Source of the DNA: an uncultured Desulfovibrio sp.
Lineage (GTDB): Bacteria; Desulfobacterota; Desulfovibrionia; Desulfovibrionales; Desulfovibrionaceae
NCBI GenBank assembly: GCA_900541395.1
Contig: UQJT01000053.1
Location: forward strand, 1-13,758
Reading direction: 5' to 3'
DNA: 13,758 nucleotides
The position numbers were made by a program, and so were the translations under genes. Shown here piece after piece: positions 1 through 13,758 of this stretch (its first letter is position 1; each line of letters starts with the position of its first letter). The notes under the pieces were generated by a model. The model worked only from the letters and a program-made list of their open reading frames with translations. It was not told the DNA's origin and did not search any database.

Positions 1-24
1 TGATTTTCGGGATTTCCGACTCCG

Positions 25-876: not shown

Positions 877-1107
877 GTCCGGCTCCTTCTTGCGACCCCT
901 TTGCCGAAAAGAGTGACAATCCCCGCCAGCTCCCGAAAGCGCCATCGGGACGCCGACAAGTTTCCGACAGGACAGTATGGCGCAAGCACGCCCCAATCTC
1001 AAGCGGCGCCGTCCCCGGTTCGCTTTTGTTCGCGGAACATCCCGATACGTTCGCCACCCACACCGCTGCGCCGCTATGCGGACACAAGAAGGCGTTTTTA
1101 CCCGGAC

Positions 1108-2694
1108 TCAGGCTCGCGTTGTCCGTCGCCGCAATCGTCGCAGCACGGGCTCGAACAGCACAGTCAGAAAATCCGGAGCAAAGCGTCGGGCCAACAGGAC
1201 GTAGACGACCAGGAACAGACAAGAGCCCGCGGCCAACTCCAAAAATTGCCGGGCCAGGAGGGGCAGTCCCGGCCCCCAGACGGGCAGGAAACGAACCAGA
1301 ACCCAGGTGGGCAGCACCGACGGCAACACCAGGGCCAAGCCTCGCCACGTCGTGCCGCCCAACCCCGCAAATGCGTCGCCCCCCCAGCGCCGCCGGGCGA
1401 TGACCAGCAGGGCCGAAGCATACAGAAACAAGGACAGACAAGTGACCAAGGCCACGCCGGGCGCCCCCCAGCGCGGGGCCAGCCCCAAATATACGGGTAC
1501 GGTCAACAATGAGGCCAGAGTACCCACCACGGCCGGAGTCAGAGTATCCTGACGGGCGTAGAAGGCGCGGCCCGTCACCTGTTGAAGGGACCAAAAGGGC
1601 ACGGCCAACAGCATGATCTGAAGCAGGGGCGTGGTGGCCGCGGTGTCGACGGCGCTGAAGCTGCCCCCCTCGAAGATGAACCCCAGAATGGGGCCGGACG
1701 CAACGATAAGCCAGGCCGTGACCGGGATGACCACGATCAGGCTGTTGCGCAAGGCGGTATTCAGAGTGCGATCAAACTCCCGCGCGTCTCCTTTGGCAGC
1801 CAGCGAGGCCAAAAAGGGAAATGAAGCCACGCCCGCCGCCTGGGCCACCACGCCCACAGGCACCATCATGATCCGCCGGGCGTAGTTGAGCAGACTCACC
1901 GCGCCTTCTCCGGCCATACTGCCGAACACGCGCACGAACTGTTCATCCAGCACCACCACGGACTGTCCGATCATAAAGGGCAGGGCCAGTAGCAAAAAAC
2001 GCACGAAAAGCGGGTGGCGCAGCCCCGGCATCAGGCGCAGGCCGTCCGCCCGCACAGCCAACCAGGGCAGGACAAAGGAACCGACGGCCGCTCCGGCCAG
2101 CACCCCCCAGCAAAATCCCTCCATGCCCGAGGCCACGCCCATCCGGGGCAGCACCACCCCGCCCAGCAGAATACATCCGTTGTAGACCAGGGGGGTGAGG
2201 GCGGGCACGGCAAACTGCCGCCGAATATACAACACGGCGGACAGGCAGGCTCCCGGCAAAAAAAAGACCTGCGCGGGCAGCACAATGCGCAGAAAAGTCG
2301 TCAACCGTTCCCGCTGCCAGGAATCAAAACCGGGTGCCACCAGACCGGACAACCAGGGGGCGGCGAGCCAGGCCAGCAGAGTCAGCACGGTGATGGCCAG
2401 GGCGGCCCAACAGAACACCGTGCCGAAAAAACGCCAGCCGTCTTCTTCGTCTCGCTCGAAGCAGCCCGCCAGAAGCGGGATGAGAGTAATGGAGATGTAG
2501 CCGCCCGCCAACAGATAATTGAGAAAATCGGGCACCACGAAGGCGGAAAAATAAATATCCGTCTCGCCTCCCGCCCCGAACTGCCACGAAATAACCTTAT
2601 CGCGCAGCAGCCCCATAAGCCGTGAAAGCAGCACGCTGAAGGCCATAATCAGGGCGGCCGCGCCCATTTTCTGCCGAGAGGTCAAAAGCGGCAT
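1108..2694 (-). CDS. murJ: MurJ/MviN-family lipid II flippase-like membrane protein
   Basis: Polytopic inner-membrane protein of the MOP superfamily (MurJ/MviN), which flips the peptidoglycan precursor lipid II across the membrane. At 528 aa it has the usual family length (E. coli MurJ is about 511), with roughly 13-14 hydrophobic segments and a basic C-terminus. Seen: the N-terminal S-R-x-x-G-x-x-R-D signature (R25, R31, D32), FGAGGETD (D46) and NYARRIMMVP (R274, matching E. coli R270). Odd: where E. coli has P-N-L-L-R-R-I-F-A-E-G, this protein has P-D-F-L-N-Y-L-L-A-G-G, so R52, R53 and E57 are replaced by N59, Y60 and G64. It could be a divergent MurJ or a paralogue moving another polyprenyl-linked glycan. 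The start at 2694 has only a weak GGTAAG-like ribosome site. It begins 27 bases after the stop of the peptidase-like gene, so the two probably share a transcript. Confidence 0.88.
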   Translation of the reverse strand: MPLLTSRQKMGAAALIMAFSVLLSRLMGLLRDKVISWQFGAGGETDIYFSAFVVPDFLNYLLAGGYISITLIPLLAGCFERDEEDGWRFFGTVFCWAALAITVLTLLAWLAAPWLSGLVAPGFDSWQRERLTTFLRIVLPAQVFFLPGACLSAVLYIRRQFAVPALTPLVYNGCILLGGVVLPRMGVASGMEGFCWGVLAGAAVGSFVLPWLAVRADGLRLMPGLRHPLFVRFLLLALPFMIGQSVVVLDEQFVRVFGSMAGEGAVSLLNYARRIMMVPVGVVAQAAGVASFPFLASLAAKGDAREFDRTLNTALRNSLIVVIPVTAWLIVASGPILGFIFEGGSFSAVDTAATTPLLQIMLLAVPFWSLQQVTGRAFYARQDTLTPAVVGTLASLLTVPVYLGLAPRWGAPGVALVTCLSLFLYASALLVIARRRWGGDAFAGLGGTTWRGLALVLPSVLPTWVLVRFLPVWGPGLPLLARQFLELAAGSCLFLVVYVLLARRFAPDFLTVLFEPVLRRLRRRTTRA

Positions 2695-2721
2695 GACGGC
2701 TTACCGGGTTGGAGGGGCTTG

Positions 2722-3276
2722 TCAGGGCAAAGACAGCAGGCGCACGCACTCGGGCGGAATCACGAAATACTCGTGAGGGCGCAACGCCGCCTGATCGGCC
2801 AGCTCTCCGCCGCGCAGGCAGTACACCCCGCCGGGTTCCAGACTGGAATCGAACAGGTGAAGACCGCTTTTGTCCACATCTCGAGCGGTGGTCCAATGGT
2901 CCACCACGGGCGTATCCCGTAAAGGCACGTAACGAAGAAAACGGAATACGCCGGTGCGTCGCCGTTCGGGCGCGGCATATTCGACCAGGGCGTTCCATAC
3001 CTCGGCGTGGGGTGTGCCGGAGGCGAACGGCGCGCGTATTATTAAAGGATAACGGGGTCGCACGGCTTCCAGCATCTGATCCACCAGGTCCACGTAATCC
3101 GTGCGATGGGCGAGCACGTCCCGAAACCGGACTTCGTTGCGTGATTCGCGCACCAGCACTTCGTTAAACAGTTCGCGGGCCTGGGCGGGAGTGATGCCGT
3201 GCAAAATTTGAAGAGCGTTGAGCACCGCGTACACGGCGCAAAAGGTATCGATTTTCCCCTGGTAGAAAGGCTGCAT
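2722..3276 (-). CDS. papain-like (C39-type?) cysteine peptidase-fold protein, function unknown
   Basis: A 184-aa soluble protein with no signal peptide or membrane segment. I do not recognise a named family with certainty. The layout resembles papain-fold and C39-like cysteine peptidases. A catalytic-type Cys sits near the N-terminus in a helix-start context (IDTFCAVYAVLNAL, C13). A His-Trp comes later (VVDHWTT, H127), followed by an Asp on the next strand (LHLFDSS, D143). A Cys-His-Asp triad is therefore plausible by inference. Start at 3276 is chosen because the protein-like pattern begins there; the ribosome site is weak (AAAGAG, 3 bases away), and an upstream in-frame extension to 3534 reads into the divergent panC gene. 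It lies just upstream of the murJ-like gene on the same strand, which would fit an envelope role, but this is only context. Confidence 0.7.
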   Translation of the reverse strand: MQPFYQGKIDTFCAVYAVLNALQILHGITPAQARELFNEVLVRESRNEVRFRDVLAHRTDYVDLVDQMLEAVRPRYPLIIRAPFASGTPHAEVWNALVEYAAPERRRTGVFRFLRYVPLRDTPVVDHWTTARDVDKSGLHLFDSSLEPGGVYCLRGGELADQAALRPHEYFVIPPECVRLLSLP

Positions 3277-3382
3277 AAACTCTTTTCGCCGCCCGGGCGG
3301 ACGCGGAATAGGGCCGCCGGAACGCGGCACGTGAACAGGGACTTTTGTTGCATAGCCCCCGCCCCTCCGCCCGTCAAGGTGC

Positions 3383-3411
3383 TGGACAGAACAGGACGGA
3401 ACGTGTATAGA
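3383..3411 (+). promoter_or_regulatory. candidate sigma-70 promoter for panC-metK
   Basis: TGGACA (3383-3388) and TATAGA (3406-3411) are separated by exactly 17 bases and would start a transcript near 3418, about 28 bases before the panC ATG. The -35 matches consensus at 5 of 6 positions and the -10 at 4 of 6. It sits in the divergent gap between the minus-strand peptidase-like gene and panC. No strong Shine-Dalgarno precedes the panC ATG. Confidence 0.4.
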
Positions 3412-3445
3412 TGGGCCTTCATCAACTATATTCCCATAACTTGAT

Positions 3446-4297
3446 ATGCAGATACTAACCACACTTCCCAGTCTGACGGCCCAGGCCGAACAGTGGCGGA
3501 CCGAGGGGCAACGAATCGCGCTGGTTCCTACCATGGGCTATTTTCATGAAGGCCATCTCAGCCTTATGCGCCGTGCCCGCTCCCTGGCCGATCGGGTAGT
3601 GGTAAGCCGCTTCGTCAACCCCACTCAGTTCGGTCCCACCGAAGATCTGGACTCCTACCCGCGCGACGCCGAGCGCGACATCGCCCTGGCCGGGGCCGAA
3701 GGCGTGGACGCCCTGTTTCAGCCCGCGCCCGAGTCCATGTACGCGCCGGACCACGCCACCTGGGTGGAAGTGCCCGCCTTGTCTTCGGTATTGTGCGGCG
3801 CCAGCCGCCCTATCCACTTCCGGGGAGTGTGCACGGTGGTGCTCAAGCTGTTTCACCTGGCCCGGCCCCATGTGGCCGTGTTCGGCGAAAAGGACTGGCA
3901 GCAGCTGACCGTGATCCGCCGCATGGTGCGCGACCTCAATGTGGGCGTTGATATAGTGGGACACCCCATCGTGCGCGAAGCCGACGGGCTGGCCCTCAGT
4001 TCGCGCAACGCCTACCTGACCGCTGAAGAGCGCGCTCAGGCGCCGAACATATACAAGGGACTGCTGGCCGTGGCCGAAAGCGTGCGCCAGGGCGAACGCG
4101 ACGCAACCACGCTTCTGGACGATTTCAAGGAACGCCTGAAACGCGAAGTTCCCCTGGGCGAACCGGATTACCTGTCCATCGTGCATCCCGACACGCTGCA
4201 AAACCTGACCAAGCTGACCGACGCGGCTCTGATCGCCGTAGCGGTCCGCCTCGGCCGGGCCCGACTTATCGACAACTTGCGCTTGCTTCCCCTGTAA
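3446..4297 (+). CDS. panC: pantoate--beta-alanine ligase (pantothenate synthetase)
   Basis: Cytosolic ATP-dependent ligase joining pantoate and beta-alanine to make pantothenate, the coenzyme A precursor. The 283-aa product has the normal family length and all signatures in order: [13 protein letters not shown] (HIGH-like nucleotide motif, about residues 28-40), FVNPTQFGP, the GEKDWQQL loop, and LSSRNAYL (the KMSKS-equivalent region). The ATG at 3446 matches the family start, though no clear Shine-Dalgarno precedes it, so initiation may be weak or depend on a short leader. It is followed after 37 bases by metK on the same strand, with no terminator between, so a panC-metK operon is likely. 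It is divergent from the peptidase-like gene. Confidence 0.96.
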
Positions 4298-4334
4298 CCC
4301 GCCCGCTCCGGCGCGGCGACAAGGAGACTCTCCC

Positions 4335-5510
4335 ATGAATCTTCCCAAGGGCAAATATTACTTTACGTCCGAATCCGTCACCGAGGGGCATCCCGACAAA
4401 GTGGCGGACCAGATTTCCGACGCCGTACTCGACACCCTGCTGGCTCAGGACCCTGATTCCCACGTGGCCTGTGAAACGCTGGTCACCACGGGCATGGCCG
4501 TCATCGCCGGCGAAATCACCACCAAGGGCTACGCCGACCTGCCCCATGTGGTTCGCGAAACCATCCGCAATATCGGCTACAACAGCTCCGATATGGGCTT
4601 CGACTGGCAAACCTGCGCCGTGCTGTCGTCCATTGACAAACAGTCCCCCGACATTGCCCAGGGCGTCAACCGCGAGGCCCCCGAAGAACAGGGCGCGGGC
4701 GACCAGGGCATGATGTTCGGCTTTGCCTGCAACGAAACGGATACCCTGATGCCCGCTCCCATTTACTGGGCGCATCAGCTTTCCCTGCAACTGGCCCGGG
4801 TGCGCAAGGACGGCGTGGTCGACTTCTTCCGGCCCGACGGCAAGACTCAAGTGTCGTTCGAATACGTGGACGGCAAACCCGTACGCATATCCAACGTGGT
4901 GGTCGCCACCCAGCACGCGCCCCAGGTCAGTCAGGACGATCTGATCGAAGCCGTCAAACGCGAAGTGATCCGCCCCGTGTTGGAACCCACCGGCATGTTT
5001 GATGAAAAAAACTGCGACATATTCATCAACACTACCGGGCGCTTTGTGGTGGGCGGCCCCATGGGCGACTGCGGCCTGACCGGCCGCAAGCTCATTCAGG
5101 ACTCTTACGGCGGCATGGGCAGCCACGGCGGCGGCGCTTTCTCGGGCAAAGACCCTTCCAAGGTGGACCGTTCCGCCGCGTATATGGCCCGTTATGTGGC
5201 CAAGAACGTGGTGGCCGCCGGTCTGGCTCCGCACTGCGAAGTGCAGGTGGCCTACTGCATCGGCGTGGCCGACCCCGTGTCCGTTCTGGTTTCCTCGCAA
5301 GGCAGCGGCGAAGTGCCTGACGAAATCCTGACCAAGGCCGTACGCGAGGTGTTCGACCTGCGCCCCTACCACATCATCAAACGCCTGGACCTCAAACGCC
5401 CCATCTTCCAGAAGACGGCCTGCTATGGCCATTTTGGGCGCGAACTGCCCGAATTCACCTGGGAAAAAACCGACGCCGTGCAGGATCTGCTGACCGCCGC
5501 CAAAGTGTAG
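4335..5510 (+). CDS. metK: S-adenosylmethionine synthetase (methionine adenosyltransferase)
   Basis: Makes S-adenosylmethionine from ATP and methionine; a cytosolic homotetramer in known members. The 391-aa product has normal length. Signatures visible in order: [20 protein letters not shown] near the N-terminus (His and Asp for ATP and Mg), [16 protein letters not shown] (the hexapeptide GAGDQG, methionine/ATP loop), [16 protein letters not shown], and [19 protein letters not shown] (phosphate-binding GGGAFSGKD). AAGGAG at 4321-4326 lies 8 bases before the ATG and fixes the start. It lies 37 bases after panC and is followed by a strong intrinsic terminator, so it ends the operon. The gap before it is too short for a SAM riboswitch, and none is seen. 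Confidence 0.98.
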
Positions 5511-5535
5511 TTCCGGCAAAACCCGCCGTTTTCTT

Positions 5536-5569
5536 CCGCCCCGCGCCGCCGCGCGGGGCGGATTTTTTT
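5536..5569 (+). terminator. intrinsic terminator after metK
   Basis: Perfect 10-bp GC stem (CCGCCCCGCG, 5536-5545, pairing with CGCGGGGCGG, 5552-5561) around a 6-base loop, followed directly by seven T (5563-5569). It starts 26 bases after the metK stop and should end the panC-metK transcript. Confidence 0.93.
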
Positions 5570-5946
5570 ATGCCGCGTTCACCGCAATCCAGAGCGTTTT
5601 GCCCTTGAAAATATCCGCCAAGCCACTGCGTTCCGTCCCGCGGGTTTCATGCCTCCATCGGCGCCATACGCCGCACACGAATTACGGCTGTTCCGATGTC
5701 GCGGCAGAGTTTCGCTTCGCCCAACTCCTGGAGCATTTTCCCATTAAAAATGTTCCAGGCCCCGTATGGGCCCCCTTTCCCGGCGAACATGCGCGACCTC
5801 GACGTTTCGGATAAAGCGGAGCCGCTTTGCCTGGAACGCGATTTTTTTGGCGAAAAATAAATCAACCCCTTGTCGATACAGCACAATACACTGTTTTTAT
5901 TACTATTATTTTTTTAATAATTTTTTTCCCAAAATAAAAGATTTTG
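5570..5946. other. intergenic stretch without genes; AT-rich upstream element
   Basis: Apart from the palindromic motifs at 5591-5759 and a small hairpin (AAAGCGG/CCGCTTT, 5813-5828), nothing coding is seen here. From about 5845 composition shifts abruptly from GC-rich to very AT-rich, with A and T tracts at 5889-5946 directly before the TTGACA box. Such tracts resemble an UP element that strengthens RNA polymerase binding; this is an inference from composition and position. Confidence 0.45.
5591..5759. repeat. pair of related palindromic motifs in the metK-flavoprotein gap
   Basis: A near-perfect inverted repeat at 5727-5759 pairs CCTGGAGCATTTT with AAAATGTTCCAGG (13 bp, one G-U wobble, 7-base loop). 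A related, more degenerate copy of its core (GAGCGTTTTGCCCTTGAAAATATCC-like) lies at 5591-5616. The two share the order GAGC-TTTT-CCC-T-AAAAT-CC. They could be ends or halves of a short palindromic repeat family (REP- or MITE-like). No coding potential is believable between them, and copies elsewhere cannot be checked here. Confidence 0.35.
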
Positions 5947-5947
5947 C

Positions 5948-5980
5948 TTGACAGCCAACCCCAGACGAGTATGGTATACT
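5948..5980 (+). promoter_or_regulatory. likely strong promoter of the AprA-like/ferredoxin operon
   Basis: Consensus -35 TTGACA at 5948-5953. Two overlapping -10 candidates follow: TATGGT (5970-5975, spacer 16) and TATACT (5975-5980, spacer 21). The first has the better spacing, the second the better sequence. A/T tracts lie immediately upstream. A start near 5982-5988 would give a leader of about 340 bases before the flavoprotein ATG. Confidence 0.5.
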
Positions 5981-5981
5981 T

Positions 5982-6328
5982 GACCGGGACTCAATCCGAA
6001 AGAAACCAAACTCCACAAAGACTTCATTTCCTCTCAAAACTTCTTCAACATCTCCCTGACCACACCTTCAACCAACCATAAAACCAGGAGGGTATATCTT
6101 TAGACACATTCTATAAAACCCCATTCTTTCTTTTCTGCTATCTTGAAACGAGTGTTTATACATATCGAATCTGTACTATTACCATTTTGAAATCTTTACA
6201 ACAATTTTCATTTATTTTTTCTTGTTTTTAACAGAGGTAAAACTAGCCGTAACATTGGCACAGGAGGAAACTATAGAAAAAATTTTTCCGCTTATCAACC
6301 CCTTATTTTTCTACTAGTGAGGATTGTC
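5982..6328 (+). promoter_or_regulatory. long AT-rich, G-poor 5' leader of the flavoprotein operon
   Basis: No standard-start gene is visible in this 350-base stretch. From 6001 to 6085 there are 32 C but only 3 G in 85 bases, the kind of unstructured C-rich RNA that Rho binds. Two perfect Shine-Dalgarno sequences, AGGAGG at 6086-6091 and 6262-6267, have no ATG, GTG or TTG at usable distance. They could act as ribosome-binding stabilisers of the mRNA, as described for STAB-SD leaders, or could serve unusual start codons. The true ribosome site of the flavoprotein is GTGAGG (6317-6322). Confidence 0.45.
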
Positions 6329-8188
6329 ATGAGTGTAAAAAAGATTGAAGCGGATGTCATAGTTCTGGGCGGCGGCAGCGCCGGCACCTTTGCGGCCATC
6401 AAGGCCAAGGAAACCAACCCTAACTGTCGTGTCGTCGTGGTCGACAAGGGCCCCATCGAAACCTCGGGCGCCATCGGCCGAGGCATGGACGCCCTCAATA
6501 TCGTCTCCGTCCCCGGATATGGAACTCCGGAAGACGTGGTCGAGGCGCTGACCAAGGTCACTGAAGGCATCATCGACCAGGAATGCGCCTATGTCCTCGG
6601 CAGAGACTCCCTTGCCGTCATCAAGGACCTGGAAAAATACACCGACCGCAAGCCCGGCGACCTTTTCCCCCTGGATAAAAACGGCAACTACAAATGCAGC
6701 TACCTGCACCCCACCAACAAGGCCCTGTACCTCGCCATGGACGGCGAAGACATCAAACGCGGGCTCGCCCGTGAAGTCCGCCGACTCGGCTGTACCGTCC
6801 TCGACCGCACTCCCGCCTGTCGTCTGCTTACCGACGACAACGGCAAAATCGCCGGCGTCTTCGCCTTCAACATGCGCAGCGGCGATTACTATCAGATAGA
6901 AGCCCCGGCCGTGATCATCACCGCCGGCTGCGTCGGCAAGTTCGGCATGCCCCGCGACGGTTACCTGAGCGGTATTTACGAGTTCCCCGGCAATACCGGC
7001 GACGGCTTCGCCATGGCTTACCATGCCGGCGCGGAAATGGTGAACATGGAGTGCTTCCAGACCAACCTGCTTATGAAGGACTTCAACGGCCCCGCCTGCG
7101 GCTACGTGGTCATCCCCCGCGGCGGATACGGCGTCAACGCCTACGGTCAGAAATACTGGTCCCACGGCTACTGGTCCGGCGACATGTTCCTGGCCGTGTG
7201 GCGCGAGTTCATGGAAGGACGCGGCCCCGTGTATCTCAAACTCGACCACCTGCCCGAGGAAACCCTCAAGGGGCTGGAAAAAATCCTGTGGGGCACCGAG
7301 CGCACCGTGCGCGGCCAGTTCCACAAACAGCGCAACGAAGACTACCACTGCTGGGACTCCGTGGAACAGGGCATGGAAGAAATCACCCTGTGTTCCGGCC
7401 ACAGCGACTCCGGCATCCTGGTCAACAAAGACACCGAAACCACCGTGCCCGGCCTGTTCGCGGCCGGCGACTGCGCCGCAGTGCCCCAGCAGTACCTGAC
7501 CGGCGCTTTTGTGTTCGGCTCCATCGCCGGACGTATGGCCGCCGAATACGCCGCCAAGGCCGGAAAAATCGGCTCCACCAAGGACCCCGAACAAACCTGG
7601 CAGGAAGTAAGCGCCCCGCTCCGCCTGGAAAAGGGCTTGCCCGTGGAACAGGTGGAAACCAAGATCCGCACCAAGATCAGCCACTACCTTACCCCGCCCA
7701 AGAGCGACCCGCTCATGAACAAGATGCTGTGGTGGGTGGACCGCATTCGCCGCGAAGACCTGCCCCAAGTCAAGGTGTGCGACTACCATGACCTCATCCG
7801 GGCCACGGAAGTCACCAGCATCACCGACTGCGCCGAAATGGCGGCCCGCGCCTCGCTGTTCCGCGACGAAAGCCGCTGGGGCCTGAGCCACTATCGTCTG
7901 GCCTGCCCCGAACGCAAGGCCGAATGGGATCGGCAGTACGTTATCGTGAAAAAGAACATGACCAGCGGCGAAATGGAATGCGAAAAGCGGGAAGTGCCCG
8001 CCTACAAGTGGGACTATCCGACCCGGCTTGAATACGAATACCCGAAAATCAACCTGAATATCGGCAAGGGCTTCGTGCATCCGGACAACGACTTCACGGA
8101 CCCGTGGATCGTGGAGAAGTTCGAACGCGAAGGCATGGACATCCCCCAGCGCATATTCCCGAAGATGAGCCACAAGAGGGAGGCATAG
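6329..8188 (+). CDS. AprA-like FAD flavoprotein (fumarate reductase/APS reductase alpha family), substrate unknown
   Basis: A 619-aa cytoplasmic flavoprotein with no Tat or Sec signal. It has the N-terminal FAD dinucleotide fold (VIVLGGGSAG, 10-19), SGAIGRGMDALN (46-57), the second FAD segment TTVPGLFAAGDCA (371-383), and an AprA-type C-terminal domain (RATEVTSITDCAEM, then FRDESRWGLSHYR). Against Archaeoglobus AprA (sequence recalled), N57 matches Asn74 and H358 matches His398. The positions equivalent to the APS-binding Trp234 and Arg265 are Y217 and L248, so APS is probably not the substrate. Canonical AprA is usually somewhat longer. Start at 6329 follows GAGG at 6 bases; an in-frame GTG at 6317 overlaps that site. 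The ferredoxin gene follows after 2 bases. No sat or qmo genes are nearby. It may reduce or oxidise an oxyanion, sulfonate or organic acid. Confidence 0.9.
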   Translation: MSVKKIEADVIVLGGGSAGTFAAIKAKETNPNCRVVVVDKGPIETSGAIGRGMDALNIVSVPGYGTPEDVVEALTKVTEGIIDQECAYVLGRDSLAVIKDLEKYTDRKPGDLFPLDKNGNYKCSYLHPTNKALYLAMDGEDIKRGLAREVRRLGCTVLDRTPACRLLTDDNGKIAGVFAFNMRSGDYYQIEAPAVIITAGCVGKFGMPRDGYLSGIYEFPGNTGDGFAMAYHAGAEMVNMECFQTNLLMKDFNGPACGYVVIPRGGYGVNAYGQKYWSHGYWSGDMFLAVWREFMEGRGPVYLKLDHLPEETLKGLEKILWGTERTVRGQFHKQRNEDYHCWDSVEQGMEEITLCSGHSDSGILVNKDTETTVPGLFAAGDCAAVPQQYLTGAFVFGSIAGRMAAEYAAKAGKIGSTKDPEQTWQEVSAPLRLEKGLPVEQVETKIRTKISHYLTPPKSDPLMNKMLWWVDRIRREDLPQVKVCDYHDLIRATEVTSITDCAEMAARASLFRDESRWGLSHYRLACPERKAEWDRQYVIVKKNMTSGEMECEKREVPAYKWDYPTRLEYEYPKINLNIGKGFVHPDNDFTDPWIVEKFEREGMDIPQRIFPKMSHKREA

Positions 8189-8190
8189 TC

Positions 8191-8418
8191 ATGGAACGGA
8201 CCGACTGCGGTAAATACGAATGGGTCGTGGTGGACAAGGACAAGTGCGTCAGCTGCGGCTACTGTGTGGAATACTGTCCGCGCGACGTGCTGCGCCTTGA
8301 TGATGAAGGACATCCCTATATGGCCTACCGGGACGACTGCTGGTACTGCGATGTATGCAAATTCGTCTGCAAAGCCAAGGCCATCGAACTTGAAACCGTC
8401 CCCTATCTGATCCGTTGA
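8191..8418 (+). CDS. AprB-like ferredoxin with two [4Fe-4S] clusters, electron partner of the flavoprotein
   Basis: A 75-aa ferredoxin. Cluster motif one is C19-x2-C22-x2-C25-x3-C29-P; motif two is C50-x2-C53-x2-C56-x3-C60, with Lys instead of Pro after the last Cys. The DDCWYC segment aligns with AprB's DMCWEC, so W51 corresponds to the Trp (B48 in Archaeoglobus) placed between a cluster and FAD. This supports a direct partnership with the preceding flavoprotein. Unlike AprB (about 150 aa), the first motif has ordinary ferredoxin spacing and the long C-terminal tail that clasps AprA is absent. The start at 8191 is set by GAGGGAGG at 8176-8183, inside the end of the upstream gene; only 2 bases separate the genes, implying translational coupling. 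Confidence 0.92.
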   Translation: MERTDCGKYEWVVVDKDKCVSCGYCVEYCPRDVLRLDDEGHPYMAYRDDCWYCDVCKFVCKAKAIELETVPYLIR

Positions 8419-8468
8419 AAACCCGTAGCGGTCCGCGCCACGGCACGGCGCGGACCGCGCGAGGGTTT
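8419..8468 (+). terminator. long GC hairpin just after the ferredoxin gene
   Basis: A perfect 12-bp stem (GCGGTCCGCGCC, 8428-8439, with GGCGCGGACCGC, 8447-8458) is nested inside a 6-bp AAACCC/GGGTTT stem (8419-8424 and 8463-8468). It begins right at the ferredoxin stop codon. There is no long T run, so it may act as a 3'-end stabiliser or inefficient terminator. A second hairpin follows at 8476-8501. Confidence 0.6.
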
Positions 8469-8475
8469 CACCATA

Positions 8476-8501
8476 GAAGGGGGGAGGGCAATCCCCCCTT
8501 C
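8476..8501 (+). terminator. second hairpin in the ferredoxin-transporter gap
   Basis: Stem GAAGGGGGG (8476-8484) pairs with CCCCCCTTC (8493-8501) around an 8-base loop whose ends can add an A-T pair. No T run follows. Together with the preceding hairpin it probably marks the 3' end of the flavoprotein-ferredoxin transcript. Confidence 0.4.
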
Positions 8502-8678
8502 CCAGAAGCCCGGGGTTCACAACAGGAATATCCCGCCGCACCGGGGAACGGGCCGCCCATCAATGAGGCTCCGTCCCATCAGATGAGGAGATGGAATGCA
8601 CCTGTGATCAGACGCCATGCTTCTTGCGTATCCGCCGAAAGACCCTCTCCTTTCGCCGGACGACTCTCCGAAAGACGC

Positions 8679-8753
8679 CGCGCATCCGTCGGGCCTCTCC
8701 CCTTGATTGAATGCCTTTCGCTCAAGGGGGTCTGCGGATGCGCGCGCTCTTTT
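8679..8753 (+). promoter_or_regulatory. two-tier structured RNA element upstream of the transporter gene
   Basis: Outer 10-bp stem CGCGCATCCG (8679-8688) with CGGATGCGCG (8735-8744), and inner 8-bp stem CCCCTTGA (8699-8706) with TCAAGGGG (8722-8729). A short pyrimidine-rich stretch with TTTT (about 8748-8753) follows the outer stem. It could be an attenuator, a small RNA, or a terminator. It matches no riboswitch class I can name. The rest of the gap (8502-8678 and 8754-9040) holds no believable gene. Confidence 0.4.
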
Positions 8754-8835
8754 CTCCACCCGGCAGGGACCGGGGGAAACATGCGGCACAAGCTTTATAT
8801 CAAAAGCCTATTTCGGAAGAAAAGTCCAGCTTTTC

Positions 8836-8853
8836 TTGTGAAAAAGGTCCCAC
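8836..8853. promoter_or_regulatory. possible CRP/FNR-family (HcpR-like) operator
   Basis: TTGTGA, six bases, then TCCCAC, against the HcpR/CRP-type consensus TTGTGA-N6-TCACAA: 10 of 12 positions fit. It lies about 200 bases before the transporter start, near an 8-bp hairpin (AAGAAAAG/CTTTTCTT, 8817-8837). HcpR-type regulators are known in Desulfovibrio. A single imperfect site is weak evidence. Confidence 0.25.
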
Positions 8854-9052
8854 GACTTTCCCCCGATGAGATACGCGCATCAGGCGCCTTCTTTCCACCT
8901 CCTTTCCTTATGACGGCTCCCCCATCTCATGACGGCTTCGATACCCGTTGTGGAGTCCGGTTTCGGCCGACAATTCCACACGAAGGACCGACGCGCGCGA
9001 CGCGCGACGGCTCCCTGACGGCCTTTTCCGCCGTCCGCCCATGGAGATGTTT

Positions 9053-10657
9053 ATGTCAGCTCAAGACTACGATGTCGACAAGGGAGTGCCTCAGGAATCA
9101 TCCCTCCTCACCTCTTCTGCCCCCCGGACCGACGCGACGCCCCAGGCCGCGGCTCCGGAATTTCCGGCTGTTTACAAGGAAAGCCGCTGGCCGCTGATTG
9201 CCGTTCTGATCGGACCTGCCATTTACCTGGCTTTTCTGCTTGTTCCCTTCGCCGACAGCACCGTCACTCAGCGCGGCGGCCTGGCCATCATTCTGGTGGC
9301 CGCCTGGTACTGGGGCACGGGCTGTATTCCCTCGGGCTATGTGATGGCCGTGCCCGTGTTCGGCACCGCCTTTCTGCCCGGCATGAAATTCGGCGAAATT
9401 CTGCAAACTCTCATCCACCCCAGCCTGCCCATGCTGCTGGGTCCGGCCCTTATCGTCTGTATGTGGAGCCGCTGGGGCTTTACCCGGCGCATGGCCCTGT
9501 TTGTCCTGGGCAAGGTGGGCACCTCGGTGCGCGTGCAGGCGGTCACCTGGCTGCTTTTAGCCACGTGCATCAGTTTTGTGGCCGCCAACGTGGTCATCGC
9601 CATCGCCCTTACGCCCATCGTGTTGGAAATGCTGAAGGCCGTGGGCTATGACTCGCCCTCCAAGCTGCTTAAATCCAAATCGGCCATGCTGATTATCATC
9701 GCCGTGGGCATCGGCGCCAGCTTGGGCGGCTTTCTCACGCCTATGGCGGGAGGCCAGGCGGCCATCACCTGGACCCAGTTGTGCACCACCTTGGGGTATA
9801 CCGTGCCCATGGCCCCCTTCGCCGCGCGCCTGGCGCTGCCGGTATTTCTGTCCATCATTCCCGTAGCGCTGTTGTTCGGCATGTTCTTTCCCTCCGACGT
9901 CAAACGCTTTGAAGGCTCCGAAGACTATTTCCTTGACGAGTTGAAGCGTATGGGCCCCCTGTCCCGCGCGGAGCTGTGGGGCGTGGTGATCTTCCTGTTC
10001 GCCATCATTCTGCCCTTCACCCAGCCTCTGTGGCAGCCCATCGTCCCGCAAGGCATCGACATCAACCCCAACATCATTTTCGCCACCATTACCTGCCTTC
10101 TCGCTCTCATCCCCGCCCCGGACAAAGGCGCCGCCGTCAAGCCCTCGGAATATCAAAAGGGCGAGCGCCTGCTGGGCATGAATTCGATCAAGATTCTGCC
10201 GCTTCAGGCCTTTTTGATCTGGCCCACGGCCATGAGTATTTCCATCCTGGTCAACAAAACCGGAGCCAGCGATCTCATGGTGCCGCTGCTGGGCCAGTAC
10301 TGGAACCTGCCGCCTTATGTGGGCACGGGACTTTTCGCCATGTTCTGCGTGGCGCTCGGCAACGTCGCCTCGGACACCGGCGCGGCGGGCATGTTGGCTC
10401 CGGTCGTGGCGTCGGCCACCATGGCCGCCGGTGAAAATCCCATCCCGTGGCTGCTCATGATGGGCTATACGGTCAACTTTTCGTTCATGGTGCCCAGCGC
10501 CACCGGCACTATGGCCCTGCCCATCGCTCTGGGCGGCAAGGCGTCCTGGCGTCTGCCGGTATACGGATTCTTTGTGGCCGTAGCTTGCGGCGTGGTATCC
10601 TGGCTGTTCTGGGGAACGGTTCAGGCCCTGGATCTTCAGTTCTGGCTCACGGTGTAA
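9053..10657 (+). CDS. SLC13/DASS-type anion transporter, substrate unknown
   Basis: A 534-aa inner-membrane permease of the divalent-anion:Na+ symporter (SLC13/DASS) type; known members import dicarboxylates, citrate or sulfate. A hydrophilic N-terminus (1-45) precedes about 11-12 membrane segments. In place of the two family Ser-Asn-Thr motifs it has A178-N179-V180 (SFVAANVVIAIALTPIV) and S440-D441-T442 (NVASDTGAAGML), both at the right place before an Ala/Gly-rich helix. The altered motifs suggest an unusual substrate. Start at 9053 is chosen because GGAG (9043-9046) lies 6 bases upstream; an in-frame ATG at 9041 overlaps that site. It is 634 bases downstream of the ferredoxin on the same strand, behind hairpins, so probably separately transcribed. 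A shared pathway with the AprA-like pair is inference. Confidence 0.85.
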   Translation: MSAQDYDVDKGVPQESSLLTSSAPRTDATPQAAAPEFPAVYKESRWPLIAVLIGPAIYLAFLLVPFADSTVTQRGGLAIILVAAWYWGTGCIPSGYVMAVPVFGTAFLPGMKFGEILQTLIHPSLPMLLGPALIVCMWSRWGFTRRMALFVLGKVGTSVRVQAVTWLLLATCISFVAANVVIAIALTPIVLEMLKAVGYDSPSKLLKSKSAMLIIIAVGIGASLGGFLTPMAGGQAAITWTQLCTTLGYTVPMAPFAARLALPVFLSIIPVALLFGMFFPSDVKRFEGSEDYFLDELKRMGPLSRAELWGVVIFLFAIILPFTQPLWQPIVPQGIDINPNIIFATITCLLALIPAPDKGAAVKPSEYQKGERLLGMNSIKILPLQAFLIWPTAMSISILVNKTGASDLMVPLLGQYWNLPPYVGTGLFAMFCVALGNVASDTGAAGMLAPVVASATMAAGENPIPWLLMMGYTVNFSFMVPSATGTMALPIALGGKASWRLPVYGFFVAVACGVVSWLFWGTVQALDLQFWLTV

Positions 10658-10668
10658 TCGGACACCTA

Positions 10669-10700
10669 TTCCCCGGCGGCTCCGCCGTCGGGGAACTTTT
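10669..10700 (+). terminator. intrinsic terminator after the transporter gene
   Basis: A 12-bp stem with one G-U wobble (TTCCCCGGCGGC, 10669-10680, with GCCGTCGGGGAA, 10684-10695) around a 3-base loop, followed by CTTTT. It starts 12 bases after the stop and isolates the transporter from the next gene. Confidence 0.8.
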
Positions 10701-10711
10701 CATCCCCGGCA

Positions 10712-10739
10712 GCGGCATATATAGAAAAAGATATGCCGC
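10712..10739. promoter_or_regulatory. 9-bp inverted repeat before the 144-aa unknown gene
   Basis: GCGGCATAT (10712-10720) and ATATGCCGC (10731-10739) form a perfect inverted repeat with a 10-base A-rich spacer. It ends about 32 bases before the next start codon. It could be an operator for a dimeric regulator or a leader hairpin; there is no T run after it. Confidence 0.35.
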
Positions 10740-10771
10740 CCGGAGAGTCATTTTGATGAACGGAGATCATG

Positions 10772-11206
10772 ATGCGGAATTTTTTCGCACAACGCATGGA
10801 TATGGGCCGTTATCCCGACGACACCAGGCGGGACCTGTTCGTGTTCAATCGCCGGTATTTCGATCAGGTTCTGCACAACAACCATAAATTCCGGCATGAA
10901 TACGCCGAGGCCTACCGACAATGGGCGGCGAATCAGGGGGTTGACCGACTCAACCGTCATACCCTTTTGCTGCCGCGTATCGAAACGGCCATTGAGCTGA
11001 TGGGAGAAAACGAATTGACAACACTGTTCCGCCGCCTGCTGGACGCCCTGGGAAACGAAGTTCCGCTCGCGGATCTCCACTACCGCGATACGTTGCCCGG
11101 CGGGCGTTGCGACATCGACCCGGCCTGCGCCGCGTTTATGGAGCCCGTGCGCCGCTTCTGGCTGCGCCTTGCCCTGCCCGACGTATGGGAGGAAGACGAG
11201 CTCTGA
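10772..11206 (+). CDS. hypothetical protein, soluble, mostly helical
   Basis: I do not recognise this 144-aa protein. It has no signal peptide, membrane segment or metal-binding motif. It is rich in Arg, Asp, Glu and aromatic residues (LFVFNRRYFDQVLHNNHKFRHEY, split here only to describe: basic-aromatic in its N-terminal third), has a helical-looking middle, and ends in an acidic tail (DVWEEDEL). GGAG at 10762-10765 sits 6 bases before the ATG at 10772; an adjacent ATG at 10769 would add one Met. Codon use is like its neighbours, so it is probably a real gene. It lies between a terminator and another small unknown gene, 162 bases apart, and context gives no function. Confidence 0.7.
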   Translation: MRNFFAQRMDMGRYPDDTRRDLFVFNRRYFDQVLHNNHKFRHEYAEAYRQWAANQGVDRLNRHTLLLPRIETAIELMGENELTTLFRRLLDALGNEVPLADLHYRDTLPGGRCDIDPACAAFMEPVRRFWLRLALPDVWEEDEL

Positions 11207-11368
11207 GCTCATGACGCGACGGTCGGGGAAAATCATTCTTGCCAATCGACCGAACGCACACATCATATTTCTGTCTTCCATCCAACGAAGGGACGCCGGA
11301 TCCGGTGCGCTTCCGCCCGCCGTTCCTTCCCGACCTCATCAGGCGCAAGCCATAGCAAGGAGACCCTT

Positions 11369-11590
11369 ATGGGCGAATTTCTCGACGACGTGGTCAACAA
11401 TGAAACTCCGGAGGAAACCCGGGCCCGGGAACGCGTGCGCATGGTCGACTGGATGCGCGGAGTCATCGCGGAAAAGCCGGGCCGGGCCGAACGCAAAGCC
11501 TTTATGAACAAAGTGCAGGCGTCCGCCGCCTATCACGGCATTACCCTGGAGGAACTGGAACAGGGTCTGCCGGACGGGACGGAACGATAA
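11369..11590 (+). CDS. small hypothetical protein (73 aa), charged and helical
   Basis: I do not recognise this protein. It is 73 aa, strongly charged and probably all-helical (GEFLDDVVNNETPEETRARE at the N-terminus, ITLEELEQGLPDGTER at the C-terminus), without cysteines, a signal peptide or a membrane segment. A very good ribosome site, AAGGAG at 11357-11362, lies 6 bases before the ATG and supports a real, well-translated gene. It follows the 144-aa unknown gene by 162 bases on the same strand; that gap has no clear terminator, so they may share a transcript. Confidence 0.72.
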   Translation: MGEFLDDVVNNETPEETRARERVRMVDWMRGVIAEKPGRAERKAFMNKVQASAAYHGITLEELEQGLPDGTER

Positions 11591-11876
11591 CGCCCTCCTT
11601 CATGTCTTCCCTCCGTAAAAATCTCTTCAGCCTGTCGGTAAGGCGGGATTCCGCCGGGCATCATCCGGAACGCCTCGGAAATTATCGACACATAAAAGCG
11701 ATGATCCGTTTCGCTTTCCGTTTGCCCCGCTTCGCGACAAGAAAAATACCCGGCTGCGCCGGGCGCCCGCTCTCAGGCAGACGTCGAGAAAGGCCGAGGG
11801 GACGAACTGCCCCGGCAGGGACTTTTTAAGCAGCCTGGCCGGGGCGTCCGGCGGCGCTCCTTCCGGGGCTGCATCT
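11591..11876. other. gene-free gap before the flagellar genes
   Basis: No believable gene is seen. The stretch holds small hairpins: GGCGG/CCGCC at 11642-11655, AAAGCGA/TCGCTTT at 11695-11717, and an 8-bp stem GCCCCGGC/GCCGGGGC at 11809-11845 with a T-rich loop. Read on the minus strand, the stem CCCGGC/GCCGGG (11749-11763) is followed by TATTTTTC, a terminator-like layout, although no minus-strand gene lies nearby. Confidence 0.4.
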
Positions 11877-11892
11877 TGGCCCGATCTTTGCT
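11877..11892 (+). promoter_or_regulatory. sigma-54 (-24/-12) promoter for fliJ-motE
   Basis: TGGCCCGATCTTTGCT matches the sigma-54 consensus TGGCAC-N5-TTGC at all but one position (A to C). The invariant GG (11878-11879) and GC (11890-11891) are exactly 12 bases apart. Transcription would start near 11903, about 54 bases before the fliJ ATG. Sigma-54 control of flagellar operons is well established. Confidence 0.7.
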
Positions 11893-11956
11893 ATATTCCG
11901 GGCTGCGGCATCCGCATATCATATTTTTGACGGAATCTCTCCAACAGGTAGTCGAC

Positions 11957-12394
11957 ATGCCCCCTTTCCGCTTTTCCCTCGAACAGGTGCTGAACTACCG
12001 CACCCAGTTGGAGCAGCAGGCCAAGGTCGAACTGGCCCGAGTGGAGCAGGAGCGTCTGCGCGAGCAGCAACGAGCCGATACCCTACGCGCCATGTTGGAC
12101 GAGCAGGAACGCGCCCTGGCCGCCCTGACCCCGGATAAAACGGGCGAACGCTGGCTGGCGGAAAATTTCATCAAGGGGCTGCGCGCGGACCTGAGCGTTA
12201 CCGTACAACGCGTACGCAACTGGACTATGGCGGCTGAAGCCGCCCGCACGGAACTCATCAGCCGCTCCAAGGACAAAAAAACCTTGGAAAAACTCAAAGC
12301 CACACAGGCGGAAAACCATGCACGGGAAGAACAGCTCCGCGAGCAGCACGAATACGACGAAACCGCGTCCCTTCGCTACAAGGCTTCGTATTAG
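11957..12394 (+). CDS. fliJ: flagellar export chaperone/stalk protein FliJ
   Basis: A 145-aa protein, the usual FliJ length, that is coiled coil from end to end. It opens with the family-typical FRFSLEQVLNYRTQLEQQAK, followed by long Glu/Gln/Arg/Leu-rich heptads and a charged C-terminus (REEQLREQHEYDE). FliJ works in the cytoplasm in the flagellar type III export gate, with the ATPase FliI and FlhA. The start at 11957 gives the typical MPPFRFSLEQ beginning, with AGGT about 7 bases before it. A sigma-54 promoter lies about 65 bases upstream, and the MotE-like gene follows at once, an arrangement that supports the call despite low sequence conservation in the family. Confidence 0.88.
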   Translation: MPPFRFSLEQVLNYRTQLEQQAKVELARVEQERLREQQRADTLRAMLDEQERALAALTPDKTGERWLAENFIKGLRADLSVTVQRVRNWTMAAEAARTELISRSKDKKTLEKLKATQAENHAREEQLREQHEYDETASLRYKASY

Positions 12395-12413
12395 CCGCAT
12401 CTGTCGTCTGGTC

Positions 12414-13292
12414 ATGATGCTGGCGGCGGTAAAAATCACCTTTTTGGCCGGATTGGCGCTGACCGGTTTCGATTCGGTTCCCACTGCCGACGGCGAGCCC
12501 CGGATCGCAGCCGCCGTCGATGTTCAGAACATCACCCCCGCCCCGGGGCCGCTCATTCAGGAAGCCGCGCTCCCGACGGAGCCGAACCCGCCCTCCGCGT
12601 CTCCGACTCTCGTCTCCGTCGCCGCTCCCTCCGCTCCGCTTCCCGAACGCGCGGACGACGTTTCCCCGGCGCGTACCGATATTGTCGCTGAAGCCTCCGG
12701 AGCCGACGATCTCCAGGCCGCTCTGAGTCAGGCTTCCTCCCGCTCGGCCCTGTCCGTACACCATGTATTCGGCACATCCGTGGCCCGGGCGGCCGATCTG
12801 CCTCCCGTGCCCGAAGTGGCGGCTCCGGCCCCCAACGTTCGCCCCATGACGTCGCCCGTAGCCCCGGAGCGCGTGGTTCGCCCCGACGAAATCACGCCCC
12901 AGGCTCCGCCCGCCCCTACGGTGGGTCCCTTTGTCTCGCCCGATTCCGCCGCCCGCAAACAGGCCGAACTCAATCGGCGCGAACAGGAATTGCTGGCCCT
13001 TCAACAGCAGATGGAAAACCGCATGAACGAGCTGCATGGCCTGGAAAACCGTCTTCAGGGCATGTTGCAGGACGCCAATACCGCCCAGGAATCCAAATTT
13101 AAACAACTGGTGGATATGTACGCCAATATGAAGCCTCGTCAGGCGGCTCAAGCCCTGACCAATATGGATGAAAGCATTGCCGTCAAAATTCTGACCGGCA
13201 TGAAAAGCAAGCAGTCCGGTGAAATTTTGTCTTATATGGAGCCCACGCACGCCGCGCGCCTGTCGGAAGTGATGAGCAAAATGCAGATGTAG
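12414..13292 (+). CDS. MotE-like periplasmic flagellar protein (MgtE-N-like domain)
   Basis: A 292-aa protein with an N-terminal hydrophobic anchor or signal segment (MMLAAVKITFLAGLALTGF). It has a long Pro/Ala/Ser-rich, low-complexity linker (about 20-180), a coiled coil (about 181-225, LNRREQELLALQQQMENRM), and a C-terminal MotE/MgtE-N-like helical domain (about 228-292; MYANMKPRQAAQALTNMD, then ILSYMEPTHAARLSEVM). MotE-type proteins are membrane-anchored and assist flagellar motor function; the linker should span the periplasm. Start is uncertain. The ATG at 12414 gives a 19-base gap from fliJ but no good ribosome site. An in-frame ATG at 12318 overlaps fliJ by 77 bases, has AGGCGG upstream, and would add a basic segment before the anchor. 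Family role is known; exact function here is inferred. Confidence 0.8.
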   Translation: MMLAAVKITFLAGLALTGFDSVPTADGEPRIAAAVDVQNITPAPGPLIQEAALPTEPNPPSASPTLVSVAAPSAPLPERADDVSPARTDIVAEASGADDLQAALSQASSRSALSVHHVFGTSVARAADLPPVPEVAAPAPNVRPMTSPVAPERVVRPDEITPQAPPAPTVGPFVSPDSAARKQAELNRREQELLALQQQMENRMNELHGLENRLQGMLQDANTAQESKFKQLVDMYANMKPRQAAQALTNMDESIAVKILTGMKSKQSGEILSYMEPTHAARLSEVMSKMQM

Positions 13293-13374
13293 ACGCAACG
13301 GCGCGGGAATAAAGGCCGGGGCGGGCCTGACGGGCTCCCCCCCCCGCCATGCCGTTGATTGATGCTGTGGAAAA

Positions 13375-13553
13375 GGCGCCCCGATTGAAATCGGGGCGCC
13401 TCAGTCTGGATGACAAACCCCGCGTTGCGGGGTTTGCGCCGTCTAAGCCGCAAAGCGGCTTGACGGAAAGGCACAAAAATCAGTCGATTACGGCGCGGCA
13501 GAGCCGCGACCTACTCCTGATTTTTGGGGCTGCCGACTTTATCGGCAGCCTCA
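13375..13553. repeat. hairpin-array tandem repeat, unit 1 (179 bases)
   Basis: Five inverted repeats in fixed order. A: GGCGCCCCGATT/AATCGGGGCGCC (13375-13400). B: AAACCCCGC/GCGGGGTTT (13415-13435). C: AAGCCGC/GCGGCTT, extended by CCGTC/GACGG (13439-13466). D: AAAAATCAG/CTGATTTTT (13475-13525) enclosing CGCGGC/GCCGCG. E: GGCTGCCGA/TCGGCAGCC (13528-13550). Hairpin D, with A tract and T tract, would work as a terminator in both directions. No other terminator is seen after the MotE-like gene. Confidence 0.93.
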
Positions 13554-13731
13554 GGCGCCCCGATTGAAATCGGGGCGCCTCAGACTGATGACAAACCCCG
13601 CGTTGCGGGGTTTGCGCCGTCTAAGCCGCAAAGCGGCTTGACGGAAAGGCACAAAAATCAGTCGATTACGGCGCGGCAGAGCCGCGACCTACTCCTGATT
13701 TTTGGGGCTGCCGACTTTATCGGCAGCCTCA
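13554..13731. repeat. hairpin-array tandem repeat, unit 2 (178 bases)
   Basis: The same five hairpins in the same order. It differs from unit 1 only by one substitution and one deleted base in the short linker after hairpin A (TCAGTCTGGATGAC in unit 1, TCAGACTGATGAC here). Near identity points to recent duplication or ongoing homogenisation. Confidence 0.93.
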
Positions 13732-13758
13732 GGCGCCCCGATTGAAATCGGGGCGCCT
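13732..13758. repeat. hairpin-array tandem repeat, unit 3 (partial, cut by window end)
   Basis: A third complete copy of hairpin A (13732-13757) followed by one T, after which the window ends. The array probably continues. Confidence 0.85.

Follow-up and report, generated by a model that had tools for sequence, protein, structure and literature searches.

What does a protein resembling AprA, the flavoprotein of adenosine 5′-phosphosulfate (APS) reductase, do in a locus without sat and qmo genes? We analyzed a 13,758-nt stretch of DNA from an uncultured Desulfovibrio sp. (contig UQJT01000053.1, positions 1–13,758; hereafter, the window), in which such a flavoprotein is encoded directly before a short ferredoxin. 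An earlier note on this DNA had described the flavoprotein as having lost APS-binding residues and as apparently acting on another substrate. According to our analysis, it is likely a distinct AprA-fold oxidoreductase with a substrate other than APS. The pair probably forms a soluble two-subunit enzyme that receives its electrons from ferredoxin and reduces an organic anion after import; this reading explains the fold, the fixed ferredoxin, the varying importer, and the hydrogenase encoded beside some of its relatives.

Family Assignment, Phylogeny, and Distribution

The flavoprotein gene is an intact frame coding for 619 amino acids (aa), with an ATG start common to its relatives; these include full-length proteins of 66–87% identity. 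The FAD_binding_2 and Succ_DH_flav_C domains of Pfam were identified in the product, and its predicted model (predicted local distance difference test score of 91) has the AprA/FrdA fold. The best match by sequence among solved structures was the alpha chain of the 3′-phosphoadenosine 5′-phosphosulfate (PAPS) reductase of Methanothermococcus thermolithotrophicus, MtPAPSR (8a8o, 3.4e-55), followed by Archaeoglobus fulgidus AprA (1jnr, 2.7e-22). The protein failed the cut-offs for dissimilatory AprA (TIGR02061; 107.6 bits vs. 641.75), assimilatory AprA-type proteins and MtPAPSR (PRK06854, NF005331; 232.9 vs. 557), and fumarate reductase FrdA (TIGR01176; 88.2 vs. 932.7). It passed that of the NCBI family PRK08275 (NF006131, "fumarate reductase/succinate dehydrogenase flavoprotein subunit"; 625.6 bits, cut-off 587); novelty as a family is therefore not borne out, and the flavoprotein represents a divergent lineage within a catalogued family that, to the extent of our searches, is uncharacterized. 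Literature searches on AprA-like flavoproteins, sulfonate use, anaerobic desulfonation, and the HEAT/ferredoxin operon returned, among the papers listed (at most 20 per search) and judged by titles and abstract openings, none on this gene family. A horizontal-island artefact was rejected because the G+C content at third codon positions of the gene (0.81) was in line with that of the neighboring panC (0.77) and metK (0.79).

We aligned 63 rows: 19 members of the clade of the window protein, 10 relatives of about 50% identity from metagenome-assembled genomes (MAGs), 11 PRK08275 rows, 7 from the class of the related Desulfovibrionaceae MAG G001, 2 further ones, 10 AprA-type rows (6 AprA-like non-dissimilatory and 4 canonical), AsfA, and 3 outgroup flavoproteins. 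In the tree, the clade was a single branch (97/99), with the MAG group (100/100) nearest and the PRK08275 rows next. Together with two further groups, these made up 49 rows (96/83), apart from the branch of the 10 AprA rows (100/99). The flavoprotein falls among the 49, outside both dissimilatory and assimilatory-type AprA, which, together with the TIGR02061 score and the separate AprA of the relatives described below, upholds the claim of the earlier note that it is a distinct oxidoreductase and not a canonical AprA.

The search of 5.8 billion proteins, with 7997 candidates scored, found among the best 120 of 1134 matches 46 full-length relatives with 67–100% identity and then a gap down to 53%. 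The clade is tight (66% identity or more) and patchy among anaerobes: among the matches listed, hosts were Desulfovibrio, Desulfosporosinus, Desulforamulus, Desulfobacterales, Sporomusa, Selenomonas, Clostridium pasteurianum (a 71% identical member), C. kluyveri (70%), and an uncultured Megasphaera. It was rare in the genome samples, with 1/297 (class of G001), 2/300, 2/82, and 1/391 genomes, frequencies that are rough since the seed genomes (G001, G002, G004, G005, and G006) are among those sampled and few candidates were scored per genome. G632 was the only clade genome newly found there. In the 297-genome sample, the second-best match (G268) had 49% identity over its piece and lay outside the clade; the other 11 genomes were far lower. 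One 3.7-Mb relative genome (G177) contained 24 strong matches to the flavoprotein superfamily, a large set of possible anaerobic reductases.

Residues of the Putative Pocket

The pocket was judged from the alignments. In agreement with the earlier note, Asn74 and His398 of AprA are kept as N57 and H358; this holds for 59 rows, the exceptions being AsfA and the 3 outgroup flavoproteins. Trp234 and Arg265 of AprA, which we take to hold APS, with Arg265 at the sulfonyl end, correspond to Tyr217 and Leu248 in 19/19 clade rows, as that note had proposed for the window protein, and Tyr235 corresponds to Glu218 in the same 19; the AprA-type rows have W, R, and Y in these columns (10/10). The phmmer pairwise alignment alone puts Trp234 on Glu218, while the multiple alignments support Tyr217. 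On the adenine side, Gln145 is replaced by Tyr134; the MtPAPSR paper gives Gln145 a role in APS binding and calls the APS-coordinating residues invariable in AprA (PMC10322725).

To call these residues "lost" was, however, too strong. The 30 non-AprA relatives outside the clade likewise lack W and R in these columns, so AprA may have gained the pair. The outgroup branches, on which the root depends, are very long and were flagged by the tree program; the change may thus have been a loss here or a gain in AprA.

E324, R325, R335, and C355 are identical in all 49 non-AprA relatives. Against Escherichia coli FrdA, His232 aligned with N246, Thr244 with G258, and Glu245 with Y259; Arg390 has no counterpart, its stretch being missing from the window protein, and Arg287 could not be aligned with certainty. 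These five residues are the dicarboxylate ligands of FrdA. Judged by alignment, the pocket of the flavoprotein matches neither AprA nor FrdA, since ligand positions of both are changed.

Separate Sulfate Activation Genes

None of the 11 open reading frames (ORFs) of the window scanned against protein families was sat, aprB, or qmo, and one more ORF, read by eye, was taken as ispH; this confirms the earlier statement that no sat or qmo genes lie nearby. Canonical AprA above the cut-off was encoded in 5/10 clade genomes (G001, G003, G007, G008, and G009), and Sat was found in the same five. G001 and G007, both related Desulfovibrionaceae MAGs, have a separate AprA with 1137 and 1107 bits, respectively, in addition to Sat. 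The aprBA genes of G001 sit with qmoABC: QmoC passes its model, and QmoA and QmoB, named by position, match HdrA models below the cut-off. AprB of this genome has 157 residues and the motif CWECYSC. The window organism is probably a sulfate-reducing bacterium.

A non-dissimilatory AprA-type protein was found in 6/10 clade genomes (G002–G006 and G010); the one scanned (L048) passes PRK06854. The assimilatory APS reductase of clostridia was rejected as an identity for the flavoprotein because such a protein is encoded separately in these six genomes and the Trp/Arg pair is missing.

Ferredoxin Partner and Gene Neighborhoods

Clade neighborhoods were compared in 15 loci: the window, L001–L013, and L067. 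The ferredoxin gene directly follows the stop codon of the flavoprotein gene in the window and comes after it in all 14 loci long enough (the window and 13 relatives; L003 ends at the flavoprotein); the ferredoxin is indeed short and dedicated, as previously suggested. The motif CWYCD.C is present in all 14 ferredoxins (CWYCDVC in the window).

The importer near the pair varies. DASS importers were found in the window, L001, and L012; LctP-type permeases in L005, L011, and L067; carriers of the major facilitator superfamily (MFS) in L002 and L007; and NitT/SsuA-type ATP-binding cassette (ABC) genes in L004, L006, L008, L009, L010, and L013. Transporters in L010, L011, L001, and L012 were identified from the scanned relatives with which they cluster. 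A [NiFe] hydrogenase (PF00374 and PF01058) is encoded directly downstream in 4/15 loci (L004, L005, L011, and L067), in L005 with HycI protease, HypF, and HypD; the best NCBIfam names of its subunits are VhuA and VhuG. To our knowledge, an AprA-like flavoprotein, a ferredoxin, and a [NiFe] hydrogenase in one gene row are not known from described systems. In the Sporomusa locus L008, the genes for HpsG, a sulfopropanediol dehydratase, and for its activase HpsH lie upstream on the same strand; L010 has both genes as well.

In the wider family, 14 of 51 plasmid records were read, with flanks of 7–8 kb, record length permitting. Plasmid-borne members were 40.8–46.1% identical to the flavoprotein (40 of the 51 records listed). 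The short ferredoxin was present in 14/14 loci and adjoined the flavoprotein in 12 (exceptions being Nostoc and Tsukamurella). Thirteen loci had a full ABC set (Nostoc only binding proteins), and 13 a separate HEAT-repeat protein, which is fused in Tsukamurella; Mrp genes occurred in 4 and DUF971-type genes in 6. TauE/SafE and/or YeiH-type exporters were encoded in 4 loci, two of them from Pseudanabaena, and both binding proteins scanned match SsuA_fam below the cut-off. P-II and an ammonium transporter are encoded near the Aquabacterium plasmid locus L035 (14966–16749).

Relatives from the class of G001, a second AprA-fold group, lie beside tripartite transporters (TctA in L019, L028, and L073; TctB and TctC in L073); a similar ORF was recognized by eye in L023 and L025–L027, and one Desulforamulus relative lies beside a TRAP transporter. 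In L073, a ferredoxin/NAD(P)-oxidoreductase fusion is encoded besides TctC, TctB, and TctA.

Proposed Function and Alternatives

Under the ferredoxin-fed reductase reading, the importer near the pair (DASS in the window; LctP, MFS, or SsuA-type ABC in relatives) would bring in an organic anion. Low-potential electrons would enter via the two [4Fe–4S] clusters of the ferredoxin. Given contact between the subunits, the Trp that comes next to the first Cys of the second cluster would relay them to flavin adenine dinucleotide (FAD) of the alpha subunit, and the flavin, once reduced, would reduce the anion. In the four relatives with a downstream hydrogenase, the latter would supply electrons from H2. 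The earlier expectation of another substrate fits these gene neighborhoods.

Within this reading, an organosulfonate is our leading guess and a tentative one, the choice of anion being the step with least support. It would be cleaved reductively to sulfite, which would be respired with Dsr in a sulfate reducer and assimilated in a fermenter. The guess was made because of the SsuA-type ABC genes (one of five binding proteins over the SsuA_fam cut-off), HpsGH, the TauE/YeiH exporters, and SsuD, which was not found in 10/10 clade genomes, the same search being positive in 8/14 control genomes including E. coli and B. subtilis. Clostridium pasteurianum reportedly uses sulfonate sulfur anaerobically, the gene being not known.

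Several observations weigh against this proposal. The Arg265 position is Leu here, so AprA-like sulfite chemistry is not preserved; the invariant R264 or R325 might replace it. SsuA_fam, whose cut-off was missed by four of the five binding proteins, is not sulfonate-specific, and TauE/YeiH are absent from the stretches of 10/14 plasmid loci. Organic acids are the typical cargo of DASS, LctP, TctABC, TRAP, and MFS importers. HpsGH may be neighbors by chance, since in L071 a more distant relative has another glycyl radical enzyme, a hydroxyproline dehydratase, in its vicinity. The VhuA and VhuG scores of the hydrogenase are below the cut-offs, and its adjacency would fit H2 production too. In G177, DASS, sm1, and sm2 (small conserved proteins also encoded in the window) occur together, the best flavoprotein match has 30% identity, and no clade member was found; as the contig starts about 0.5 kb before DASS, a gap and an absence of the flavoprotein are indistinguishable. 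A P-II pair near the L009 locus (12113–12819; the second by eye), with an unexplained link to nitrogen, and P-II with an ammonium transporter (Amt) near L006 (8045–9811) do not fit either. Moreover, we know of no close precedent for reductive C–S cleavage by flavin in unactivated sulfonates. The full proposal, an O2-independent desulfonase in which an AprAB-like FAD/[4Fe–4S] pair splits the C–S bond of an organosulfonate to sulfite, with electrons coming via ferredoxin or directly from H2 through a dedicated [NiFe] hydrogenase, is unlikely as it stands.

The alternative that survives best shares the general part of the ferredoxin-fed reading and differs in substrate and chemistry: an enzyme like fumarate reductase would reduce a C=C bond in an unsaturated or aromatic carboxylate that has been imported. 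Electrons would come from ferredoxin or H2, and the reaction would serve as an anaerobic electron sink. Many of the solved relatives in the Foldseek and VIA lists are such reductases, the organic-acid importers are typical for it, and the active-site His in FrdA seems to have its counterpart in His358, shifted by one column in the alignment. However, the FrdA ligands are replaced or absent at four positions, with Arg287 unsure, and neither ABC systems of the sulfonate type nor sulfite exporters agree with this reading. We regard C=C reduction as possible but somewhat doubtful, and we grade it in the same way as the chemistry of a carboxylate substrate within the ferredoxin-fed reductase reading.

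The reverse direction, in which the imported anion is oxidized and electrons flow through ferredoxin to hydrogenase or other acceptors, would be served by the ferredoxin partner and the hydrogenase of 4/15 loci, and AprAB also works both ways; still, ferredoxin is in general a poor acceptor for most such oxidations and the anaerobic, partly sulfur-linked contexts favor reduction, so that we consider this direction quite unlikely. A pure electron-transfer module feeding a separate desulfonating enzyme, as proposed for AsfAB, is very unlikely. Such a role finds a parallel in AsfA/AsfB, a reductase–ferredoxin pair with an ABC system, asfA mutants of which cannot use aromatic sulfonates (PMC4267179). 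Against it, the SsuD search was negative throughout the clade genomes, the hydrogenase is the only other oxidoreductase among the ORF groups in at least 3 of the 14 loci compared, and the presumed C. metallidurans AsfA has only distant similarity (about 30%, residues 5–398).

It is highly improbable that the protein does reduce APS or PAPS with a nucleotide site rebuilt from other residues: its closest solved structure is a PAPS reductase, which has also changed APS-binding residues (PMC10322725), but 8a8o and all AprA-type rows keep the Trp and Arg that are Tyr and Leu in the clade, the clade genomes encode AprA-type proteins separately (non-dissimilatory in six, canonical in five), and no sat or cysC was recognized beside the clade flavoprotein in the listed loci, whose ORFs were read by eye and not all scanned.

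Confirmation of the ferredoxin-fed reductase reading would mean that strict anaerobes, of which some have canonical AprAB too, use the AprAB architecture for chemistry beyond sulfate activation. A testable gene pair with an importer, and with a dedicated hydrogenase in some species, would then be at hand for an activity with a guessable substrate. A large family named fumarate reductase in public databases without support from its active site would also acquire a function. Should the desulfonase be true, sulfate reducers would respire sulfonates without ATP activation, and fermenters such as C. pasteurianum and C. kluyveri would gain a sulfur source.

Organization of the Window Locus

The features of the locus are listed in Table 1.

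Table 1. Positions of the flavoprotein–ferredoxin pair and accompanying features in the window.
Feature	Position	Strand	Remarks
AprA/FrdA-fold FAD protein, alpha subunit	6329..8188	+	Family profiles, alignment, tree, predicted model
2×[4Fe–4S] ferredoxin, 75 aa, presumed beta subunit	8191..8418	+	8 Cys; Trp of AprB-type CW.C motif
Terminator-like hairpin and T run after metK	5535..5569	+	12-pair stem (5535–5562), 11 G–C pairs; parts locus from upstream housekeeping genes
Sigma-70-like promoter heading leader	5948..5975	+	TTGACA-16-TATGGT, 10/12 matches; consensus match only
Divergent DASS/CitMHS organic-anion importer, probable partner	9041..10657	+	PF03600 and PF00939 over cut-offs; NCBIfam dass below cut-off
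sm1, conserved, 145 aa, unknown family	10769..11206	+	No Pfam match
sm2, conserved, 73 aa, unknown family	11369..11590	+	No Pfam match

The genes ispH, murJ, panC, and metK lie upstream of the pair. On the downstream side, a FliJ protein is encoded and MgtE_N was matched weakly. The leader before the flavoprotein gene (5880–6328, about 450 nt) is AT-rich, with 34% GC vs. about 61% around it. It has no Rfam match and lacks the sigma-54 box of the relatives; it may hold another regulatory element. Sigma-54 boxes (10/12 or better) precede the flavoprotein gene in 7/13 relatives (L001, L002, L003, L005, L007, L011, and L012), and in 500 single-base shuffles per locus this quality was reached 0–4 times; the loci L005 and L011 are near-copies of each other. 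No box of 10/12 quality precedes the gene in the window, L004, L006, L008, L009, L010, or L013. Sigma-54 activators are encoded in L001, L002, and L012, those of L001 and L012 having PrpR_N sensors.

The importer gene starts after a 0.6-kb gap from the ferredoxin gene; it is a probable partner of the pair, the gap leaving cotranscription open. The sm1 gene was found in six loci (the window, L001, L002, L005, L011, and L012), and sm2 follows it in L002, L005, L011, and L012 as well as in G177 and G632. In G632, sm1 lies 16 kb from the flavoprotein gene, beside sm2, a TauE/SafE exporter, and HypB-type and HypF genes. Within the class of G001, sm1 occurs in 2 of 297 genomes (G001 and G177); it was not found in 7/12 genomes searched (G004, G005, G006, G008, G009, G010, and G268). 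The window copies share 33–46% (sm1) and 29–48% (sm2) identity with the aligned relatives. These fast-evolving proteins travel with flavoprotein, DASS, or hydrogenase loci and are possibly maturation or assembly factors. At the edge of the window, an exact 172-base direct repeat (13409–13580 and 13587–13758) ends with its second copy on the last base and may be an assembly edge.

Comparison with Known Systems

The nearest solved structure, MtPAPSR, has 29% identity to the window protein. Like the window pair, it combines an FAD alpha subunit with a short ferredoxin beta subunit (104 aa), whose Trp was proposed for electron transfer (PMC10322725); unlike the window protein, it keeps the Trp and Arg of AprA, and its substrate is PAPS. 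AprAB shares with the window pair the fold, the combination of an FAD protein with a two-cluster ferredoxin, Asn74/His398, and the CW.C motif. The window pair differs from it in W234→Y217, Y235→E218, R265→L248, and Q145→Y134, in not being encoded with sat or qmo, and in its ferredoxin, from which the long tail of AprB (157 aa in G001) is missing. E. coli FrdA, in contrast to the window protein, has dicarboxylate ligands, and the window pair is without an FrdB-type partner.

AsfAB of Pseudomonas putida S-313 and Cupriavidus metallidurans CH34 likewise consists of a flavoprotein and a ferredoxin with ABC genes and is tied to sulfonate use (PMC4267179, PMC2864759). The AsfA compared here is the C. 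metallidurans ORF beside a ferredoxin, a neighbor from which its equation with Rmet_4334 was inferred. It aligned with the window protein at about 30% identity over residues 5–398 (E 4.8e-16), has a very long branch, and does not keep the N57 and H358 columns. Identity with AsfA was rejected, as C. metallidurans CHR2, said to carry asfRAB, has only this 30% match beside a ferredoxin; AsfA is thus a separate arrangement of similar make-up.

The PRK08275 relatives resemble the window pair in organization: like the window protein, they combine a flavoprotein and a short ferredoxin with importer genes nearby, and the 11 PRK08275 rows have the same residues at Y217, E218, R325, R335, C355, and H358. 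The clade proteins are longer (611–622 aa vs. 559–584 aa for the plasmid-borne members P0098–P0121). Partners differ as well: sm1/sm2, DASS, LctP, or hydrogenase in many loci of the window clade, with no HEAT-repeat protein among the 11 scanned ORFs of the window, and HEAT-repeat, Mrp or DUF971-type, and ABC genes beside the plasmid-borne PRK08275 members.
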